The position numbers were made by a program, and so were the translations under genes. The notes under the pieces were generated by a model, which searched no databases, was not told where the DNA came from, and saw nothing but the letters and a program-made list of their open reading frames with translations. A DNA stretch of 64,000 nt from Candidatus Binatia bacterium (lineage in GTDB: Bacteria > Desulfobacterota > Binatia > UBA12015), in assembly GCA_029248525.1 (NCBI GenBank), contig JAQWJE010000048.1:1-64000 (forward strand), in the 5' to 3' direction. This document shows positions 16,967 to 26,860 of this stretch, one piece after another; within the stretch, counting starts at the first letter, position 1; every line of letters starts with the position of its first letter.

Positions 16967-18625
16967 CTAGTTCCCCGATGCCACAACACCGAACCCTTGC
17001 GGCCCCTGCTGCCATGCGATCAAGGTATCCTCATCCGGCAGAGGAAATCCCTGAATCAGGTATTCACCGCTGAGTCCGCGCACAAACGGTGCGCCCAGTG
17101 TCTGAACGCTGAAAGTCGTTGCCGCAAATTCAACCCCGTCATCATAGAGACGCAACGTATGTTCGCCGTCCCCCAAAAGGGCGTAATTCCATTGCAGGAC
17201 GTAGGCATTATTGACGCGATCTGCGTCCGCACATTGGCCGCGGGTATCTCCGCGAGGGGTTCCATAAGCCACCTGAATCGGTTCTCGGTCATTGAACTGA
17301 GCGGTGATATTGCCGCCAGCACATCGCCAGCCCGAGACGATTCCGATGCCACTCATCTTGGCTCCGGGACCCGGATTCTCGAGTGCGCCCGGCACTACCT
17401 GAGCCACGCTGGCACGCCCGGAGCTTGTCGAAGCCGGGCCGCCGCATTGGCTCACCAGAACGAATGATTGGTTAGCCTGCTGCCATTCCACGTGCTGAAC
17501 ATCGCCAGAAGCGGGGAACCCGTCCAAGGCCGTGCAGTTCTCGACACCTCGAAGAAATCTCGAACCGGCAAGGCGCTGGACAGAAAAGGAGACCGAGCGC
17601 CAAACATTGCCGTCATCGAGAATCTCCAGAAGGTGATCCCCATCTTCCAGATTCGAATAGTTCCACTGCAGGGCAAACGCCGTATTTTGCTGCTCGGGGT
17701 CCGCACAGCGTCCCAGAGTATCGCCACGTGGGGTGCCGTAGGCTATCGGCAACTCATCACCACCATCAAATCGGGCGATCAGACTGCTGGCCGTGCATTT
17801 CCAACCGGAAACAATGCCGATTCCACTCTGAATCGATCCCTCCGCCGGGATTCCCAGATTTCCGATATCGCTATCGGACGGAACGACAGGAGATGGGGAG
17901 ACGACAGGGGTCGTCGTCGGTGAGACCGTGGGCCCTGGCGTCGAGGGTGCCGTTGGTGCCGGGGTTGGTGCTCCCGTGGGTGCCGGCGTCGGCACAGCCG
18001 TTGGTGCCGGGGTTGGTGCTACCGTGGGTGCCGGCGTCGGCACAGCCGTAGGTGCCGGCGTTGGTGCTGCCGTGGGTGCCGGCGTGGGTGCCGGTGTCGG
18101 GGTTGGCTCAGGCTCGTTGCTCAGGAGCAATTCATAAACGGGAGACGGCCCGTAACCAGAATCGGCCACGAAACGGAATCGTACCGGATACACACCAAGC
18201 TGGTCCTCGGGCACAATCACCTGATACGAAGGGTGGATGTGCAACGATGAGGCCGTCCCGAGGTCTGCGGACTCCCCGGCCGCATCCAAATTCGTCGACC
18301 CGACCTTGACGGTCACGGCGGGGTCAATCTCGACGATCTCCATGCGAATCTCGGTGCCCGGCGAAACGCGGGAATAGGAGCCAGTGCCTGAGTCGGGGGT
18401 GATGATCCCGGGATTGACGGTGCTGTACAGACAGTCCGAGGGGAAGCAGATGCTCTCGTTCTTGAAAACAGCATTAAGGCCCGGCTCGGGGAGCCCGACC
18501 AAAGATCCGGAAGAGGTCACGTAGACAGCAATGTCTTCGTGCACCACCTGAGCCTGGACCGGCGCCACCAACGCGGCCAGAGCCAGCAAGACAATTCCAA
18601 CCCTCGTCATATTCCGTCTCTGCAT
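16967..18625 (-). CDS. Exported protein: metal-locus surface domain, Pro/Thr stalk, two GIGIVSGW domains
   Basis: A 552-residue exported protein. A signal (about 5-26, LVAPVQAQ) precedes domain 1 (about 28-170), which has PGIITPDS, GTEIRMEIVEIDP and LHIHPSYQVIVPEDQLG. That domain is shared with the next two minus-strand genes. A Pro/Thr/Ala-rich stalk (about 172-255) follows. Two copies of an Ig-like module then come at about 270-375 and 420-530, each with GIGIVSGW, AYGTPRGDT, GRCAD or GQCAD, LQWNY and a final FLRG/FVRG. The module is common in secreted proteins of unknown function. ATG at 18625 follows GGAG by about ten bases. Context suggests a surface role linked to metal acquisition. Confidence 0.75.
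   Translation of the reverse strand: MQRRNMTRVGIVLLALAALVAPVQAQVVHEDIAVYVTSSGSLVGLPEPGLNAVFKNESICFPSDCLYSTVNPGIITPDSGTGSYSRVSPGTEIRMEIVEIDPAVTVKVGSTNLDAAGESADLGTASSLHIHPSYQVIVPEDQLGVYPVRFRFVADSGYGPSPVYELLLSNEPEPTPTPAPTPAPTAAPTPAPTAVPTPAPTVAPTPAPTAVPTPAPTGAPTPAPTAPSTPGPTVSPTTTPVVSPSPVVPSDSDIGNLGIPAEGSIQSGIGIVSGWKCTASSLIARFDGGDELPIAYGTPRGDTLGRCADPEQQNTAFALQWNYSNLEDGDHLLEILDDGNVWRSVSFSVQRLAGSRFLRGVENCTALDGFPASGDVQHVEWQQANQSFVLVSQCGGPASTSSGRASVAQVVPGALENPGPGAKMSGIGIVSGWRCAGGNITAQFNDREPIQVAYGTPRGDTRGQCADADRVNNAYVLQWNYALLGDGEHTLRLYDDGVEFAATTFSVQTLGAPFVRGLSGEYLIQGFPLPDEDTLIAWQQGPQGFGVVASGN
17930..18110 (-). repeat. Tandem repeat coding the Pro/Thr/Ala stalk
   Basis: Near-identical 24- to 48-base units on the minus strand encode PTPAPT-A-PTPAPT in series. 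They resemble a hypervariable extracellular stalk; unit number may differ between strains. Confidence 0.75.
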
Positions 18626-18800
18626 TTTTCGCACTCCACTCGGCAGAGAATCACTCAGCCCTTGTGCATATATGAAAACACCCCGGGGAGAGGAGGCCAA
18701 GCAAGACCATTCCACCCAGGGAGAATATTTGTTCGACCAACAGTTGCCATATCCCTCAAAGTCGCGACTCGGAGGGAGATGGCAGCTCCGCTCCTCGGGC

Positions 18801-18832
18801 CGGGCAAGAAGCCCGAACCCGAGAAGCGGGTT
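18801..18832 (-). terminator. Paired hairpins after the His-rich protein gene
   Basis: Two adjacent short hairpins with related loops lie downstream of the stop at 18877: AACCCG-cttct-CGGGTT and CGGGC-ttctt-GCCCG on the minus strand. No T-run follows, so a terminator or an mRNA-stability element are both possible. Confidence 0.3.
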
Positions 18833-18876
18833 ACCAACGAGGCCATCGGTTCATCAGAACCTCAGCCATGCCCAAC

Positions 18877-19941
18877 CTAGTCCTCTTCAGGAATGGTGGA
18901 ACCCTGACTTTCACGAATGCACGGAAAGGCTGCCTCGGCTGCCTCCTCGTCATCAGCGAAAACGACCACAGCGATATCCTCGAGCCCGCTCGAGTAACCC
19001 GCTCCGACCAACTCCTGCACACGACAGGCGGCCATGCCCATATTCGGGGAGATCGCGGCGGTAGCCGCAGCCAGATCGACGCCAAAGGTACCTACGCACT
19101 TCTCGGAAGCCTTGGTGATCGCATGCTGGAGGTTCGCCGAGGTTCGCGCGACAATGCCCTTATCGACATCCGAGCAGGTTTTGAGCACACGATTCGGTGC
19201 TGTATCCGTTTCCGGATCGCCACCACCGGCGCGCCAGGACTGGATGGCATCCAGGCAGTTGGTCAGCGCCTTGTAGTTCGAAGAAATCAGCTTGCCAGTG
19301 CTCCGGCTCACAGTCTTCTGACATTTGGCGGTTGTTTTCGTGGCAGTCTCGACCGGAGCCAAATAGCCATTGGTGACATGGAAGGTGTAGATGTCGGACG
19401 CCTGATAGTTACTGTCAGGATCCTCGAAGACAAAATCGATATCGCCTTCACCAAAGCCACCGATGCTCGTGTCGGTCGAATCCAGTGCGATTTGGTAATC
19501 CGGGTGGGCGTGCAGAGTCCCGTCTTCCCCGGGAGTCCCGTCATAGGTACCCAAGGAAGCCGACTCACCAATCTCGTCAAGGGTCGTAGCGCCAATCTGA
19601 ATCGAGAGACCTTCATCGATGTTGATCAGGGCGAACTCGACCGTGGTGCCAACATTCAACTCGTAAAGCTCGGGGGCCTCGTCCTCAGCAGCTCCGATTC
19701 CGGGAGTTGTCGAACCGTAGACAAGAACGGGCCCAACTGCGTTGGCGAAATCGGTACGCAAGACGGACTCAAAATTATATTCGCCCATCAGCTGCCCGGC
19801 ACCTGCATCGGTCGATCCGACTTCGATATCACCATGTCCATGATGATCGTCCTCTTCGGCGAATGCGGCGGGGCTCATGCCGAAAGCCGCAAGGCTGACG
19901 GCTGCGACGGCCGTCACAAATGTTTTGTTGATAATCTTCAT
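18877..19941 (-). CDS. Exported His-rich protein with metal-locus surface domain and Cys-helical tail
   Basis: A 354-residue protein with a clear signal peptide ending PAAFA near residue 28. The mature N-terminus is EEDDHHGHGDIEVGS, a likely metal-binding segment. The domain at about 38-190 has STTPGIG, ELNVGTTVEFALINID, LDEIGESASLG and LHAHPDYQIAL, like the proteins at 16967 and 20168. Residues about 200-354 are helical with scattered Cys (CQKTV, NCLDAIQSW, TCSDVD, KCVGTFG, ACRVQELV). The domain layout recalls all3515-type Zur-repressed proteins of cyanobacteria and surface-anchored metal-transport-associated domains; that comparison is from memory. AGAGGA precedes the ATG, and a GAAG tract lies in the leader region. 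Confidence 0.75.
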   Translation of the reverse strand: MKIINKTFVTAVAAVSLAAFGMSPAAFAEEDDHHGHGDIEVGSTDAGAGQLMGEYNFESVLRTDFANAVGPVLVYGSTTPGIGAAEDEAPELYELNVGTTVEFALINIDEGLSIQIGATTLDEIGESASLGTYDGTPGEDGTLHAHPDYQIALDSTDTSIGGFGEGDIDFVFEDPDSNYQASDIYTFHVTNGYLAPVETATKTTAKCQKTVSRSTGKLISSNYKALTNCLDAIQSWRAGGGDPETDTAPNRVLKTCSDVDKGIVARTSANLQHAITKASEKCVGTFGVDLAAATAAISPNMGMAACRVQELVGAGYSSGLEDIAVVVFADDEEAAEAAFPCIRESQGSTIPEED

Positions 19942-20010
19942 TTAAGATTCCTCTTTCTTTGGTTTGACTTCGAATAGAACTGATTTTGTGAATGAAAAAA
20001 ATGAATGCGT

Positions 20011-20033
20011 GAAGGAAGGAAGGAAGGAAGGAA
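20011..20033. repeat. Tetranucleotide tract (GAAG)n
   Basis: Five full GAAG units plus GAA on the + strand, about 70 bases upstream of the start of the minus-strand His-rich gene. Short tandem repeats in promoters can change length by slippage and alter expression. Whether this tract varies is unknown. Confidence 0.8.
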
Positions 20034-20167
20034 CTAACCGGGGAGCGAGCGAGGCTTCCCTGTCACCGCATCAAGCGCGGGCGCATAGAGACCCTGCCGA
20101 GCGCGAAACTCGACGAGTTCAGATGGACTGTGGACCGAGATGAACTCGGGCCCTGCGGATCAACCGT

Positions 20168-20785
20168 TCAGTCCTCGTCGTGGTCCTCGTCGTGCTCGTC
20201 GTGACCCTCATGATCGTCGTGACCGTCACCCTCTACCGGAACGAGACGGGCCTGGGCTGGCTCTGACGGATCGTAGATTCGATCGGCCTCAAGGCGGAAC
20301 TCGAGCAGATATTCGCCCGATTCTGTGCCCTCGGGCAAGATCACCTGCCACTCACCGTGACCATGGAGTCCGGGAGAGCTTCCCAGCACTACCGAGTCTC
20401 CCACCTCATCCAGCGCAACCCCGTCGAAACGGAACTGAACCCCAGGATCGAGAGCGGTGATCACGAGCGTTACCTCGACCCCGGACATCAACGGGTAAAC
20501 GCCTTCTTCGGGCTCATCGAATTCCACGAGCCCGAAGCCGGGATCACTGCCAGACCATAGGACAAGCGAACCGACGATGGTGTTTTCGAAGACTTCAAAC
20601 GCCTGACTGAAATCGTAATCGACGACCAGCACGCCGCCATCAGGGCTGCTCGCTCCGATCATCAAATCGACGTGAGGGTCATCCGGAACAGCGTGCGGAC
20701 TCCCGCACGCCCCCACCAGAAATACGAGTCCCAGCAGCCATCCCACCGCAGGACGCCGTGCCTGATGCCGCTGGCGCGGAGACAT
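20168..20785 (-). CDS. Lipoprotein with metal-locus surface domain and His/Asp-rich tail
   Basis: A 205-residue predicted lipoprotein. The basic n-region RQRHQARR and hydrophobic core end in the lipobox LVGAC. The mature protein begins near HVDLMIG and has SDPGFGLVEFDEPEEG, SGVEVTLVITALDPG, LDEVGDSVVLG and LHGHGEWQVILPEG, the same domain as in the two genes downstream of it. The last 20 or so residues alternate His, Asp and Glu (GDGHDDHEGHDEHDEDH), a strong candidate metal-binding tail. An in-frame ATG at 20836 exists, but the extra 17 residues do not fit a signal peptide. Probably an outer-membrane metal scavenger or buffer; this is inference from context. Confidence 0.75.
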   Translation of the reverse strand: MSPRQRHQARRPAVGWLLGLVFLVGACGSPHAVPDDPHVDLMIGASSPDGGVLVVDYDFSQAFEVFENTIVGSLVLWSGSDPGFGLVEFDEPEEGVYPLMSGVEVTLVITALDPGVQFRFDGVALDEVGDSVVLGSSPGLHGHGEWQVILPEGTESGEYLLEFRLEADRIYDPSEPAQARLVPVEGDGHDDHEGHDEHDEDHDED

Positions 20786-21060
20786 CGCGCCCCCAAAGCC
20801 CGTATTAGAACACTTCTGAATGCTTTTGTTGATCATTTCCCGTCACTCGCTTGCTGATCCAGGATCGAAATCCGGATGGTTGGTCTGACCGCGGAAGCCG
20901 AGGGAGCGACTTCATGAAAGAATTCGCCCCACGGTTCCGCGAGGTCCTCGGCTGCCACCCAGCGGCCGGATCTGCGATTTGAAGTTTCGAGATCGCAAAT
21001 CGTGGGGCTGCTTGAATGCAGAACCCGCGATCAGGCGCTGATTGCCGAGGCTTTGTAGCT

Positions 21061-21342
21061 TCAGACCCGCGGGGGGCCGCGAATTGTTCGCACCGAGTGA
21101 GAAACGAACGGAGCTTCCGAGCCGGAAGGTTTCGCCGTAACGAGGGAGCCGAAAAGAACAGGAGCCAGAGGTACAGAGGCCGCTGCCGTAATCAGCGGGG
21201 CTCGGACAGTCGTACAAACCGCGCAATTCTCGGCGAGGTGGGCGCCCTCATGCTCGAACTGATGCAGGATCCCGAAAGACACCACGACCAACAACGAGAA
21301 ACTCGCCGCCAAGGCGACTAGTCGCCCCTGTCTGCGTTGCAT
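21061..21342 (-). CDS. Small membrane-anchored His/Cys protein (paralogue 1)
   Basis: A 93-residue protein. One hydrophobic segment (about 8-25, LVALAASFSLLVVVSFGI) precedes a short loop, HQFEHEGAHLAENCAVCTT, with three His, several Glu and a CxxC. The rest is a less conserved tail ending RTIRGPPRV. The gene at 21988 has the same plan (AAEHDARHDSPPCSTCLA and an end ARAPP). Small proteins of the DUF2946 kind look broadly similar, but I cannot confirm membership. GGAGGA lies nine bases before the ATG at 21342 and directly abuts the ATG at 21351, so 21342 is the start. A palindrome at 21405 separates it from the divergent Fur/Zur gene. Confidence 0.7.
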   Translation of the reverse strand: MQRRQGRLVALAASFSLLVVVSFGILHQFEHEGAHLAENCAVCTTVRAPLITAAASVPLAPVLFGSLVTAKPSGSEAPFVSHSVRTIRGPPRV

Positions 21343-21404
21343 TCCGACCATTCCTCCGTCGAACTAGCATCGCGTCAGGCTTCCCGTCAACCTGCAATCG
21401 CATT

Positions 21405-21419
21405 TGCAACTAATTTGCG
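21405..21419. promoter_or_regulatory. Candidate operator TGCAA-N5-TTGCG
   Basis: Imperfect inverted repeat TGCAA-ctaat-TTGCG in the 86-base gap between the divergent small His/Cys gene and the Fur/Zur-type gene. A third half-site (TGCAA at 21393) lies alongside. The same palindrome, with perfect arms, precedes the second small gene (21949). It is a natural candidate for the site bound by the regulator encoded here, but binding has not been shown. Confidence 0.5.
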
Positions 21420-21428
21420 TTTGCTGCG

Positions 21429-21902
21429 TTGCCTGTGGCGCGGCAAGCTGATACCTACTTCCCAGTGCCACCCTCAAAAAAAGCAACAGAATTACCGGCC
21501 GCGGATTTAAAGGCGGTCCTGAGAGAAGCCGGCCTTCGGGCCACGATGCCCCGGCTGGAGGTTCTGCGTCGGCTGCAGTCGACCGAATCGCCCATGAGCC
21601 ATGCGGATCTGGCATCCGAACTCGTGCCACTCGGCTTCGATCGTGCAACTGTGTACCGAAACCTGAATGATTTGGTGGAAAGTGGGCTGGCGACTCGGGT
21701 CGATCTGGGAGACCATATTTGGCGGTTCGAGGGCCTGCGGCCCGAGGACAGAGACGGACCCGAGCATCCTCATTTTCTCTGCAACGACTGCGGGGACATC
21801 GTCTGCCTGCCTGCTATGGAGATCCCTCTCACGAGCAAAGCCGCCCGCCCGATCCGCGATATTCAGGACGTCGTCCTGCGCGGACGCTGCACTTCCTGCT
21901 GA
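21429..21902 (+). CDS. Fur-family metal-dependent repressor, probably Zur-like
   Basis: A 157-residue Fur-family protein. The winged helix spans about 30-100: LREAGLRATMPRLEVLRRL, then FDRATVYRNLNDLVESGLA. The metal-binding and dimerisation part has HPHFLCNDCGDIVCLP (His-x-His and a CxxC) and ends RGRCTSC, giving the second CxxC of a structural zinc site. In this family the repressor loaded with Zn or Fe blocks uptake genes. Zur is favoured over Fur because the neighbours are His-rich surface proteins and a ZnuD-like receptor. The start is uncertain: TTG 21429, GTG 21435 and GTG 21465 are in frame, and none has a clear ribosome binding site. Confidence 0.85.
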   Translation: MPVARQADTYFPVPPSKKATELPAADLKAVLREAGLRATMPRLEVLRRLQSTESPMSHADLASELVPLGFDRATVYRNLNDLVESGLATRVDLGDHIWRFEGLRPEDRDGPEHPHFLCNDCGDIVCLPAMEIPLTSKAARPIRDIQDVVLRGRCTSC

Positions 21903-21948
21903 TCTCGGCAGACCCCTGGGAGCCGGTTCGAGACCCGGAAATCGCCGT

Positions 21949-21963
21949 TGCAATCAAGTTGCA
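21949..21963. promoter_or_regulatory. Candidate operator TGCAA-N5-TTGCA
   Basis: A perfect 5-base inverted repeat, TGCAA-tcaag-TTGCA, whose right edge is 24 bases before the ATG of the second small His/Cys gene. It would overlap the core promoter, as expected for a repressor site. It matches the palindrome at 21405-21419. Confidence 0.55.
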
Positions 21964-21987
21964 TTAACGCTAGTTTCCACCCTGTAA

Positions 21988-22308
21988 ATGGAGAGGCCCA
22001 ACAGAAACGTCGGTACCGCGAGCAAAAACCGCTGGATCCGACTGGCAGGCCGCATCGCCATCGTGGCAAGCCTGTTCCTCTGGACAGTTGGTGCTCTGCA
22101 CGCCGCGGAACACGATGCCCGGCATGATTCCCCACCCTGCAGCACCTGCCTCGCAGTAACAGACGAGGGTCTGCACCAAACGAGCCACCCCCTTCCCCGG
22201 GTGGACGTCTCCATTCAGATCGCACCGATTCGGGTCGCCGACAAGAACTCCGCCGGAGCCCGAGAGTTTCGCCTCACCGCTCGCGCGCCACCCCAGTCCC
22301 TCATTTAA
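21988..22308 (+). CDS. Small membrane-anchored His/Cys protein (paralogue 2)
   Basis: A 106-residue protein. A basic start and a hydrophobic segment (about 19-40, LAGRIAIVASLFLWTVGAL) precede HAAEHDARHDSPPCSTCLA: four His and a CxxC within 18 residues. The tail ends with FRLTARAPPQSLI. It matches the protein at 21061 in length, layout and end motif although overall identity is low. The ATG at 21988 has no obvious ribosome binding site. The TonB-receptor gene begins 137 bases downstream, so the two may share a transcript. Likely a periplasmic-facing metal-binding protein of unknown function. Confidence 0.65.
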   Translation: MERPNRNVGTASKNRWIRLAGRIAIVASLFLWTVGALHAAEHDARHDSPPCSTCLAVTDEGLHQTSHPLPRVDVSIQIAPIRVADKNSAGAREFRLTARAPPQSLI

Positions 22309-22445
22309 TCAATATGGTCCAACCCGTCGCGCTGAACAGCGCGCGGTCCGACCCGTTAAATGTGGGGACTGGAACTGAAACTCGTCGCCCCGTGCGCATG
22401 CGTTATTAGAAGTCCCCGAAAAGATAGAAGAGTGGAAAAGGTCAA

Positions 22446-24689
22446 ATGAAAAATCAATCGTATCGAAATTTAAGCAGCTGGGCGGTCCGGGTCGGACTTC
22501 TCGCGACACTTCTCCTGGTGTTGAGCGCGCGCGTTGTCGCGGCCGAAACCACGGACGCAGACCCGGCAGCCACGGTTGCCGCAACGGCAGAAGCCAGCGA
22601 GCAGGGTCAGGCAGACGGACAGCAAGGCGACACTTCCGAAGCAAAGGACCCCCGAGAGCGCGTCCTTTCCTTCGGTCTTGACGAAATTGTGGTGACCGGC
22701 AGCGCGGTGCCGCGTACGGCAAGCCGACTTGCTGGCGCGGTGTCGACTCTCTCGGGCGAAGAGCTCCTGCAGAAACAGCAGGCAACAATCGGCGAGACCC
22801 TCCGCTACGAACCCGGCGTCAGCGCGACCTACTTCGGACCAGGCGCGAGCCGTCCGATCCTTCGCGGCCTCGGAGGCCCCCGGATTCAAATGCTGATCGA
22901 CAAGTTGGCGGTCCCGGATGCGTCAGCATCGAGCCAGGACCACGCCGTGACCGTCGATACACTTGGCGTCGAAAAAATTGAAATCCTGCGTGGTCCGGCC
23001 ACGCTTCGCTTCGGCCCGAACTCCGTGGGCGGCGTCGTGAATACGATCGAGCATCGCGTGCCCAAGAAATCTATCGGCAAGGCCGTTCAAGGTTCGGTCG
23101 AACTTCGTGGATCCTCCGTTGACGGCGGATTTGGAGGTGCAGCCGTCATCGAGGGCGAGGTCGAGAACATTGTCTATCGCCTGAAGGGCTTTGGCTTCAC
23201 GGCCGGCGAGGTCTCGATCCCGGGCTATGCCGAGTCCAAGCAGTTCCGCGATCAAGAGGCAGCCGAAGCCGACGAAGACGGCGAGGAAGAGGAAGAAGAG
23301 GCCTTCGGTTCCATTCCCAACAGCCAAGTGGAGTACACCGGCTTCAACGCGGGTGTCTCGTGGGTCGACGAGAAGTTTTTTGTCGGAGCCGCAGTATCGA
23401 ACTTCCAGACCAATTATGGAGTCATCTTTCACGAAGCCGGTCATGACCACAGCCATGGGCATGGTCACGGCGGCGAGGGCGAAGGCGGCGAAGAGCCCCC
23501 CATCCTGATCGATATGGACTCCTGGTCTCTGGACTTCGCAGCAGGAATCACGGACCCGTTTGAAGGCCTCCAATCGGCCGAAGCACGACTTCGCCTCGTC
23601 GACTATGAGCACTTCGAAAGCGAAGGCAGCTTCATAGCGACAACCTTCAAAAATAAAGCCTATGACCTCCGGGTGGAGGTCGTCCACGAGCCACTCGGCC
23701 TCTTCGAAGGATCCGTGGGCTTCCAGAGCACCTTCAGTGACTTCAAAGTCAGCGGCGAGGAGGGGTTCCTTCCCAATACATACTCATCGACGAACTCCAT
23801 TTTCGTCATCGAGCAAGTCGATCTTGCACCCGTAACGATCGAAATGGGCGCACGCCTTGACTACTCCTCGGTTGCATCGGGCGGAGGCGGGGCCTTTGGA
23901 CCCGCAGCGAACCGTGACTTCCCTCTCGGTAGTGCCTCTGCAGGTATTGTCTACGACTTCATGGACTCACAATTCCTGAGCCTTGATGCGTCGTGGAGCA
24001 TGCGGGCCCCCAGCTTCGAGGAGCTCTACGCCCGTGGGGTCCACGTCGCCACCGGGTTCTTCGAGATCGGGAACCCTGACCTCGACACCGAGAATGCGTT
24101 TGGCCTCAATATCGGCTATGCCGGCCAAATCTCGATTGTGGACTGGTCGATCAACGGATTCTACAACCGCTACTGGAACTTCACCTACCTCAATGGCACC
24201 GGAGTGGAACGCGACGAGATCGAGATCGGCCGCTTCATTGCTACCGACGCAGAGCTGACCGGTGGAGAGCTCGAGGTAGCCGTTCATCTGCTCGAAGACG
24301 GCCCCCATCGTCTCCATTTGATCGGCCGTGCAGATGGGGTCTACGCGCAGAATCTCAAGACCAACGAACCGCTCCCCAGAATGCCTCCAGTCCGCTTTGG
24401 GGGAAGTGTCGTCTATGAATACGAGGCTTTCCGGGCAGAATTGGACGTCCTGCGTGCCGCCAAACAAAACCGAGTGCCGGACGGTGAGTTTTCGACCGCC
24501 GGCTACACCATGCTGGATCTTGGATTTGATTACGAGCTTGATATGCTCGACCTGCCGATCACCCCTCTGCTATTCTTCCGCATGACAAACCTCCTGAATG
24601 AGGAAGCAAGGGCTTCGGAATCTTTCCTCCGGGATCGGGCGCCCTTGCCTGGCCGGAACTTCACGGGTGGCGTGAGAATCACTTTCTGA
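22446..24689 (+). CDS. TonB-dependent outer-membrane receptor, ZnuD-like
   Basis: A 747-residue TonB-dependent receptor. After a signal (about 12-32) and a low-complexity region comes the TonB-box area LDEIVVTGS (about 78-86) and the plug domain (LSGEELLQKQQATIGETL, GPGASRPILRGLGG, DHAVTVDTLGVEKIEILRGP). The beta-barrel runs to the C-terminus and ends with an aromatic residue (GGVRITF). An extracellular loop at about residues 330-350 is His-rich (HEAGHDHSHGHGHGGEGE), and an acidic Glu-run precedes it at about 275-290. Such loops mark ZnuD-type zinc receptors. It would move a metal or metal complex across the outer membrane, powered by TonB. Placement next to a Fur/Zur gene supports this. Confidence 0.85.
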   Translation: MKNQSYRNLSSWAVRVGLLATLLLVLSARVVAAETTDADPAATVAATAEASEQGQADGQQGDTSEAKDPRERVLSFGLDEIVVTGSAVPRTASRLAGAVSTLSGEELLQKQQATIGETLRYEPGVSATYFGPGASRPILRGLGGPRIQMLIDKLAVPDASASSQDHAVTVDTLGVEKIEILRGPATLRFGPNSVGGVVNTIEHRVPKKSIGKAVQGSVELRGSSVDGGFGGAAVIEGEVENIVYRLKGFGFTAGEVSIPGYAESKQFRDQEAAEADEDGEEEEEEAFGSIPNSQVEYTGFNAGVSWVDEKFFVGAAVSNFQTNYGVIFHEAGHDHSHGHGHGGEGEGGEEPPILIDMDSWSLDFAAGITDPFEGLQSAEARLRLVDYEHFESEGSFIATTFKNKAYDLRVEVVHEPLGLFEGSVGFQSTFSDFKVSGEEGFLPNTYSSTNSIFVIEQVDLAPVTIEMGARLDYSSVASGGGGAFGPAANRDFPLGSASAGIVYDFMDSQFLSLDASWSMRAPSFEELYARGVHVATGFFEIGNPDLDTENAFGLNIGYAGQISIVDWSINGFYNRYWNFTYLNGTGVERDEIEIGRFIATDAELTGGELEVAVHLLEDGPHRLHLIGRADGVYAQNLKTNEPLPRMPPVRFGGSVVYEYEAFRAELDVLRAAKQNRVPDGEFSTAGYTMLDLGFDYELDMLDLPITPLLFFRMTNLLNEEARASESFLRDRAPLPGRNFTGGVRITF

Positions 24690-24737
24690 GACGAGGAAAA
24701 AATCGCTATTATATAAACTAAAGTCGGAGACCAAACC

Positions 24738-25124
24738 GTGAATCGTCTCGGGAACCTTCTGGACAAGACGGCGATCGGCATCTCGATCGCTTGCGGTATT
24801 CACTGTCTCCTTTTACCCGTGGCTCTGGTTGCGGCTCCGTCGACGGCGCTTCTCGCGTCGGTCGACGAGAGCCTGCACCAGGCCCTCATCCTTCTGGTCT
24901 TGCCCGTCAGCTTGATCGGGTTAAGCCTGGGATGCCGACAACACAGGCAGTGGCCGATCTTTCTGCTGGGAATACTGGGAATTCTGGTCTCTGTCGGAAG
25001 CGTTTTGCTGGGCCACGATTTCCTTGGTGAATCCGGCGAGATCGCAGGCACACTCGTTGGGGCGTCCCTTATCTGTGCCAGCCATATCCAGAACTACCGG
25101 CGCTGTCGCGCCGATGCTTGCTAG
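24738..25124 (+). CDS. MerC-like inner-membrane metal protein
   Basis: A 128-residue protein with four hydrophobic helices. The first carries the MerC signature GISIACGIHCLLLPVALV (about 15-32), in which the paired Cys residues would bind a soft metal. Another Cys pair is near the C-terminus (CRRCRADAC has several). MerC proteins were described for mercury uptake, but relatives are common in zinc-regulated operons. GTG at 24738 has GGAGA seven bases upstream. The gap to the receptor gene is only 48 bases, so the two are probably one operon. The role may be inner-membrane transfer of the metal delivered by the receptor; this is inference. Confidence 0.75.
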   Translation: MNRLGNLLDKTAIGISIACGIHCLLLPVALVAAPSTALLASVDESLHQALILLVLPVSLIGLSLGCRQHRQWPIFLLGILGILVSVGSVLLGHDFLGESGEIAGTLVGASLICASHIQNYRRCRADAC

Positions 25125-25861: not shown

Positions 25862-26860
25862 CTCAATAGAATTAAACATCCTTTTCTTTTCGCTTTTGCC
25901 GCGCTGGTTCTGATTGCTGGTTGTGGCGGGTCCAGTCAGGAAGCCGGTCCAAAAATTGACGACGATCAGACAGCCACGCTCTTCGTCCAAACTGCGGGAA
26001 TAGCAAGTTTTTCCGAAACCCGGCTGTGGCTCGAGAAGGCCAGTCCGCAAACCGCATGGCGCGCTAGCGACCGTGAGCCCGGCGCCGGCATGGTTTCCAC
26101 CGAATCATTCGTATCGCTATGGGAGCAGGAAGACATCTTCGCCGCGCAACCACTGACAGCCCAATTCACCTGCACGGTGAACGGTGAGGCAGTCAATTAC
26201 CTGATAGAACTGCTGGCCCCGAAATTTTATGATGGCTTTTGGCGAGGCGAGCTCTCGCCGTCGCACAATCTGGTTGTGGGGCCCTATCACACCTACAGCC
26301 AGGCCGGGGGGCTCGTGGCCGGATTCAACAATACCACCTCCGGCAGCTACGCCTCGGTTACCGGCGGCTCGGAGAACATCGCGAGCGAGAGTCGCAGCTC
26401 CATCACGGGGGGAAGGTCCAATGAGGCCAGCGGGACTGATGCTTCCGTATCCGGAGGCTTCCTCAACAAGGCCACCGCCGATCGCTCCTCGGCGAGTGGC
26501 GGCCGCGAGAACCAGGCCTTGAATACCCTTGCGTGGACTGGTGGCGGATACCGCAACAAGGCAAGCGGGCTTTACTCCGCGGTCAGCGGGGGGAGCGCCA
26601 ATGACGCCTCCGGGATCAAGGCATCCATCAGCGGCGGTGGGAGCAACGAAGCCAGCGGCGGATCCTCCTCGGTCAATGGCGGGTTCCTCAACGAAGCCAG
26701 CGGCGCTGCCTCCTCGATCAGTGGCGGTTACACCAACGAAACCACCGCCAACTATTCGGTGGTCAGCGGTGGAATCGCCAACACCTCCAACGGCAGGTAC
26801 GCTACGGTGACCGGTGGCAAATTGAACGTCGCAGACCTCGACGATTCGGTCCTGCCTTGA
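25862..26860 (+). CDS. Lipoprotein with WF-DRP-like domain and twelve 15-residue beta-roll repeats
   Basis: The frame is open from 25844. It encodes a basic n-region (NRIKH), a hydrophobic core and the lipobox LIAGC, then a domain (ATLFVQTAGIAS, TESFVSLWEQEDIF, AQFTCTVNGEAVNYLIEL) homologous to the lipoprotein at 1670. From 26312 to 26851 there are exactly twelve 15-residue units of the form V-S-G-G-x-x-N-x-A-S-G. These resemble the YadA-head (Hep_Hag) beta-roll of trimeric adhesins, but no YadA anchor follows. A strong GGAGGA lies at 25847-25852, yet the codon at the right spacing (25862) is CTC, not ATG; the first in-frame ATG at 26090 would lose the signal. The gene may use a rare start or be a recent pseudogene. 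Confidence 0.65.
   Translation, partial: LNRIKHPFLFAFAALVLIAGCGGSSQEAGPKIDDDQTATLFVQTAGIASFSETRLWLEKASPQTAWRASDREPGAGMVSTESFVSLWEQEDIFAAQPLTAQFTCTVNGEAVNYLIELLAPKFYDGFWRGELSPSHNLVVGPYHTYSQAGGLVAGFNNTTSGSYASVTGGSENIASESRSSITGGRSNEASGTDASVSGGFLNKATADRSSASGGRENQALNTLAWTGGGYRNKASGLYSAVSGGSANDASGIKASISGGGSNEASGGSSSVNGGFLNEASGAASSISGGYTNETTANYSVVSGGIANTSNGRYATVTGGKLNVADLDDSVLP
26312..26851 (+). repeat. Twelve tandem 45-bp units coding beta-roll repeats
   Basis: Twelve in-frame 45-base units without insertions, each encoding a variant of xSGGxxNxASGxxSS. They end two codons before the stop. Units have diverged in sequence but not in length, which shows selection on the fold rather than recent expansion. 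Confidence 0.85.

Follow-up and report, generated by a model that had tools for sequence, protein, structure and literature searches.

A predicted Zur-controlled zinc-acquisition locus in Binatia with exported Ig-like proteins and small His/Cys proteins

Genes and features of the locus

The window, which is the whole stretch of DNA that was analysed, comprises 64,000 nucleotides from a Candidatus Binatia bacterium, and the locus described here spans positions 16967-25124 of it, with genes on the forward and on the reverse strand (Table 1). An ORF check of the window found all eight reading frames in the places given by a first-pass annotation, and the starts of two of them were revised. The frame of P1 is as annotated there, but its start is most likely not at 18715 but at 18610, with a signal-peptide-like beginning (MTRVGIVLLALAALVAPVQAQ), and the frame of P3 also stands, with a corrected start that is probably at 20785 and a lipobox, LVGAC, read directly off the sequence, by which P3 is a predicted lipoprotein. 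No RNA families and no tRNAs were found within the locus.

Table 1. Genes and predicted operators of the locus (positions in the window)
Feature	Position	Strand	Description
P1	16967..18610	-	exported; N-terminal Ig-like domain, probably ZepA-related (about aa 21-170), Pro/Thr linker, C-terminal domain x2
P2	18877..19941	-	exported; His-rich N-terminus, shared domain, C-terminal Cys-containing domain
P3	20168..20836	-	predicted lipoprotein; shared domain and His/Asp-rich tail
S1	21061..21351	-	small, membrane-anchored; H-x3-H, C-x2-C, C-terminal RGPP; DUF2946-like
Palindrome TGCAATCGCATTTGCA	21393-21408		overlaps the predicted operator at 21405-21419
Predicted Zur operator TGCAACTAATTTGCG	21405..21419	.	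between S1 and the repressor gene; 1 mismatch
Fur-family repressor, predicted Zur	21429..21902	+	begins at TTG or close by; structural cysteines in CxxC and in a C-terminal CTSC
Predicted Zur operator TGCAATCAAGTTGCA	21949..21963	.	upstream of S2; perfect
S2	21988..22308	+	second small His/Cys membrane-anchored protein
ZnuD-type TonB-dependent receptor	22446..24689	+	His-rich loop; NF038289 and PDB 4RDR matches
MerC-family inner-membrane protein	24738..25124	+	PF03203; 48 bases past the receptor gene, same strand

The regulator had been annotated as a Fur/Zur-type protein, and it indeed belongs to the Fur family (PF01475, E 1e-11), with a structural Cys4 site that is made up of CNDC and a C-terminal CTSC. 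The genome has two Fur-family genes, and the other one encodes a canonical Fur with HHDH. The curated model NF008646, which represents one Zur lineage, is not reached by the repressor (19.7 of 167 bits), and its matches in the PDB are generic Fur and Nur proteins. A shared palindromic operator sits before zinc genes, and the repressor is predicted to be a Zur that binds this box in a Zn(II)-dependent manner. Its metal would be zinc, and not nickel or cobalt, to judge from the gene neighbours and the ZnuD-type receptor.

This receptor had been described as a TonB receptor with a His-rich loop, and the loop is there (HEAGHDHSHGHGHGG). The best family model is ZnuD (NF038289; 314 bits, which is below the cut-off of 950 bits that was set for this narrow model), and ZnuD is also the best solved structure (PDB 4RDR, E 3e-55). 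The MerC-like nature of the membrane protein encoded next to it was borne out by PF03203 (E 3e-24, 85.9 bits with a gathering score of 27.6). MerC was not found at related loci, and the literature library that was searched contained nothing relevant on MerC together with Zur.

The two small proteins S1 and S2 had been taken for His/Cys paralogues, and they match each other weakly (E 4e-6). Together with 11 relatives, they have three invariant features, namely H-x3-H, C-x2-C and, at the C-terminus, R-[GA]-P-P. They had also been regarded as unnameable, which is only partly the case: the family DUF2946 is matched weakly by 6 of the 13 (best E 0.002), but S1 scores 18.2 bits with PF11162 and thereby stays below the gathering score of 23.7. 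From the sequences, the pair can be termed DUF2946-like, and it would stand outside that family.

The predicted operator and related loci

A 15-bp palindrome, TGCAA-N5-TTGCA, occurs in each of the two promoter regions of the cluster, and in the entire genome there are only 7 perfect copies of it. Two of these lie 101 bases apart on contig C41, where they separate the gene of a COG0523 GTPase, a zinc chaperone, from a divergently oriented FAD oxidoreductase gene (Pfam cobW and Pyr_redox_3). A third, on C49, is located before a degenerate COG0523 gene, downstream of which an alcohol dehydrogenase of the iron type (named by reading) and a TonB receptor are encoded. Another is the copy in the window, and a further one lies ahead of a possible repeat-protein gene. 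The perfect boxes at C49:600064 and C24:1585 are both within reading frames and were taken for chance occurrences. The box by the repressor gene deviates from the palindrome in one position, in the own genome, where it lies in the gap between S1 and the repressor gene, and in genome G012. Dinucleotide shuffling of ten regulatory intergenic regions from five genomes (400 shuffles) never attained the observed box match in 8 of the 10 regions, and did so in 1.5% and 4.25% of the shuffles in the other two. No operator was found upstream of P3, P2 or P1 individually, and these genes are therefore taken as a single unit that begins with S1. The two ZIP transporter genes elsewhere in the genome showed no box in those surrounding stretches that were retrieved.

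Two FAD oxidoreductase genes occur with COG0523 under a predicted Zur box (L003:3935-7919 in the own genome, and likewise in G102), and both also adjoin the cluster in G008. Downstream of the MerC gene, the window encodes a repeat protein (26090-26860; SVTGGxxNxASG) whose N-terminal FTCTVNGEAVNY-like stretch is common to it and the product of the gene at L005:11485-12138 near the C49 boxes.

The cluster recurs in relatives. In G009, the order is P3-S1, box, Zur, box, S2, ZnuD, and in G008, the genes FAD1-FAD2-methyltransferase-ZnuD-S2-Zur-ArsR and S1-P3-S-P2-P1 occupy opposite strands and have the box TGCGA-N5-TCGCA between them. G012 has a Zur gene with the one-mismatch box, together with ArsR, a His-rich protein and DksA, and here genes with the domain that P1, P2 and P3 share are found at both ends of the contig. 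G102, which belongs to another family, carries FAD2-FAD1-COG0523, two perfect boxes, a divergent Fur-type gene and a domain gene. The own genome, G008, G102 and G090 all show the order P3-P2-P1, and in G008 and G102 the interleaved S genes occupy matching positions. Elsewhere in the class, domain genes lie beside ZnuA (G090), ZnuBC and three S proteins (G102), ZIP (G012) and ZnuD (G079, G081). Box, Zur, ZnuD and small His/Cys proteins stay together in relatives. The first-pass view that the genes form one system for zinc limitation, centred on a Zur-type gene, is supported by this synteny, by the shared operator and by zinc-related neighbours, namely COG0523, ZnuA, ZnuBC, ZIP and a Cys-poor DksA. 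As to the neighbourhood of the shared domain in general, a Zur-type gene is nearby in G008, G009, G012 and G102, but many copies of the domain stand alone.

Several further genes were observed near these loci. The DksA-like protein of G012 (L044:3503-4024) has 1 of 4 zinc-finger cysteines and is encoded close to the Zur gene. In G008 and G012, the Zur-type gene adjoins an ArsR-type regulator gene (L048:6685-7038, L044:2096-2395), which is absent from the window; it could encode a sensor of zinc excess. Spermine/spermidine synthase-like proteins of about 870 aa that are fused to an MFS part (by reading, with Pfam on one of them) adjoin domain genes at L104, L106, L107, L125, L050 and L052 (G079, G081, G102, G008, G011), and such proteins could make an aminopropyl metallophore.

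The exported proteins and their shared domain

P1, P2 and P3 had been described as three exported proteins with one common domain, two of them His-rich, and this applies in both respects. The domain of about 150 residues is recognized in pairwise blastp comparisons (E 2e-14 and 3e-14 with P1, 2e-15 for P2 with P3), and the His-rich stretches are at the N-terminus of P2 (EEDDHHGHGD) and at the C-terminus of P3 (HDDHEGHDEHDEDHDED). Among 35 domain rows, the first His of the motif LHxHPxxQ is invariant and the second, two residues on, is nearly so. The C-terminal Cys-containing domain of P2 is kept in P2-type relatives. An AlphaFold2 model of the shared domain is an all-beta sandwich (mean pLDDT 91.8), and its structural neighbours in the PDB are Ig-like domains of the pilin/FimH type (Z 6-8), which is a common arrangement. 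Since these matches are generic Ig-like ones, they say nothing on function. A sequence search of solved structures with the domain gave no match, and no Pfam family was reached by any of the three proteins.

The domain is present in 21 of 148 genomes of the class and in 6 of the 14 genomes of the own order in the collection, and a search of 395 genomes of the phylum gave matches in only three, all of them from the own class. When 84,980 species genomes were scanned for two conserved peptides from a P1-type subset, 14 loci were obtained, in records labelled Candidatus Binatia, Deltaproteobacteria or bacterium. In a tree of 76 domain copies, the P2 type is one clade (99/88) that extends across several families, the P1 type with a cysteine pair is on one side of a branch (82/67; in 91% of the bootstrap trees), and the tree does not resolve the P3 type. 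The conserved exported trio appears to be previously undescribed.

Obvious zinc genes are lacking beside the domain at most loci of the families f4, f6, f7 and f17 and at some loci of f1, and with so many lone copies the domain need not be specific for zinc. In the own genome, a gene that stands alone and has no box nearby (L042:9925-10350 on contig C14) encodes a recent P1 paralogue with 79% identity in the domain. Near lone copies, there are genes for a PilS/RegB-type histidine kinase, sometimes with a response regulator (L045, L050, L107, L111, L124), which suggests a second, non-zinc setting of the domain.

One known protein comes close to the domain. ZepA/All3515 is a Zur-regulated zinc exoprotein of Anabaena that mediates zinc uptake and consists of an Ig-like domain A and a unique domain B, with a zinc site H-x(2-9)-H-F/Y-H and a PEP-CTERM end (PMC10957091). 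P1 matches the corresponding model NF040463 ('all3515 family Zur-repressed PEP-CTERM protein') with an E of 0.022 and 14.6 bits, the cut-off being 75 bits, and below this cut-off the model is matched by 9 of 23 domain rows (best E 3e-5), with no other family appearing repeatedly. The cut-off was exceeded in none of the 14 f1 genomes. Run on the 395 phylum genomes, the profile gave zero matches, but the controls were silent as well, so that nothing follows from this run. A true ZepA occurs in the same class (G029, 286 bits), and hhalign aligns the C-terminal halves of the trio's domain and this ZepA (E 2e-4, probability 47%). Direct reading of the C-terminal ends of P1, P2 and P3 shows no PEP-CTERM signal, and H-x(2-9)-H-[FY]-H is found in none of the 76 domain rows but in the ZepA of G029. 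Because of the absence of this end and of the zinc motif, the trio was kept out of the ZepA family, and sequence comparison makes its domain a probable distant relative of ZepA domain A. The trio, for which no name had been found, can thus be placed as a probable remote ZepA relative, although it lies outside that family.

A proposed zinc path, its alternatives and known systems

The gene content, the operator, the synteny, the fold and the absence of an ABC-3 permease are supported by computation, and it is likely on these grounds that the locus is a Zur-controlled zinc-acquisition locus with two divergent units, ZnuD import, Ig-like carriers and a His/Cys relay. The comparative evidence is good for the regulatory part, for which we infer zinc as the ligand and the direction of regulation. 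With zinc plentiful, the Fur-family protein would sit on its TGCAA-N5-TTGCA boxes and silence S1-P3-P2-P1 as well as Zur/S2-ZnuD-MerC, and the remote COG0523 genes and their neighbours would be silenced by the same protein, and with zinc short, both divergent units would open. The carrier and relay roles, and with them each transfer step, are what we infer beyond this. Zinc would cross the outer membrane via the ZnuD-type receptor, and the lipoprotein P3 and the exported soluble P1 and P2 may capture it by the H-x-H and by His-rich tails, either on the surface of the cell or within the periplasm, such that the metal would be handed towards the receptor or taken from it. S1 and S2 could relay zinc to the inner membrane, where MerC or a ZIP protein may substitute for the missing ZnuABC.

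That no ZnuABC was in view had been noted for the window, and it is true genome-wide as regards the ABC-3 (ZnuB) permease, for which the own genome, 98.9% complete, gave 0 matches in a search that was positive in 13 of 14 control genomes. In the class, ABC-3 is present in 104 of 127 genomes without the domain and in 12 of 21 with it, and in none of the 6 domain-carrying genomes of the own family f1, both comparisons being confounded by kinship. That ZnuABC is dispensed with altogether, with P3 and P1/P2 feeding ZnuD by means of a relocated H-x-H and the His/Cys proteins passing zinc on to MerC or ZIP, is a possibility to be considered tentatively.

It is rather unlikely that P1-P3 do not feed the receptor and are instead storage, buffering or zinc-economy proteins of the surface, which would retain zinc in the periplasm or, under starvation, take the place of envelope proteins that depend on zinc. 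The Ig-like sandwich, with pilins and adhesins as its structural neighbours, is a common fold, and the linker and repeat regions of P1 are adhesin-like, but zinc uptake is the role of the remote relative ZepA (PMC10957091), the module accompanies an outer-membrane receptor, and P3-type proteins are lipoproteins, the present one with a His-rich tail. More improbable is a system for another metal (nickel, cobalt or copper), in which a Nur- or Mur-like sensor would control a TonB receptor that imports this metal. The full-length PDB matches of the repressor include 3EYY, which we take to be Nur of S. coelicolor, COG0523 and MerC are not zinc-specific, and many orphan domain copies lie beside the PilS/RegB-type kinases and other non-zinc genes, but ZnuD is by far the best match of the receptor, and in relatives it is ZnuA, ZnuBC, ZIP and the DksA with 1 of 4 zinc-finger cysteines that are encoded next to the module or next to the regulator gene. 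That the regulator and the receptor are a true zinc pair with P1-P3, S1-S2 and MerC as mere chance neighbours is highly improbable, for in spite of the orphan domain copies away from zinc genes, including the one on C14, in G008 and G009 the S and P genes have remained beside Zur and ZnuD, the operator between them is conserved, and S-P3-S-P2-P1 recurs in another family.

How zinc is gathered outside the inner membrane of Gram-negative bacteria is poorly known, with ZepA as a recent example of an exoprotein. The zinc-acquisition locus proposed here would add a second, diverged lineage, in which synteny and a predicted operator tie conserved paralogues and small His/Cys proteins to a Zur-type gene. 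It also provides a concrete predicted operator and regulon for Binatia, a little-studied and largely uncultured class (the literature library that was searched had nothing on Binatota with zinc uptake), and a system in which zinc uptake without ZnuABC can be tested.

Zur regulons regularly include COG0523 proteins, TonB receptors, DksA paralogues and alternative alcohol dehydrogenases, and the 7-1-7 palindrome is one standard form of the Zur box (PMC6103462). All of these have their counterparts here, whereas the lack of an ABC-3 permease in the own genome sets the system apart, and the operator is TGCAA-N5-TTGCA instead of the GTTA-N5-TAAC of many proteobacteria. Two DUF2946 proteins are among the Zur-dependent genes of Caulobacter, and one DUF2946 gene, CC2720, heads a Zur-activated efflux operon there (PMC4176598). 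Like DUF2946 proteins, S1 and S2 are small, exported or anchored, and have a CxxC, but the S genes are predicted to be repressed and not activated, and the S proteins end in the invariant R-[GA]-P-P. The receptor has in common with ZnuD (4RDR) the conserved DH in the plug region, the HVA in the barrel and a His-rich loop, and differs in its score against the narrow NF038289 (314 versus 950 bits). With respect to ZepA, the trio comprises several paralogous lineages instead of one protein, has its H-x-H placed elsewhere and lacks the PEP-CTERM end, the zinc motif and any match to domain B, but like ZepA these proteins are exported, have a domain that is Ig-like in its predicted fold and are encoded near Fur/Zur-type genes, COG0523, TonB receptors, DksA, ZnuA and ZupT.
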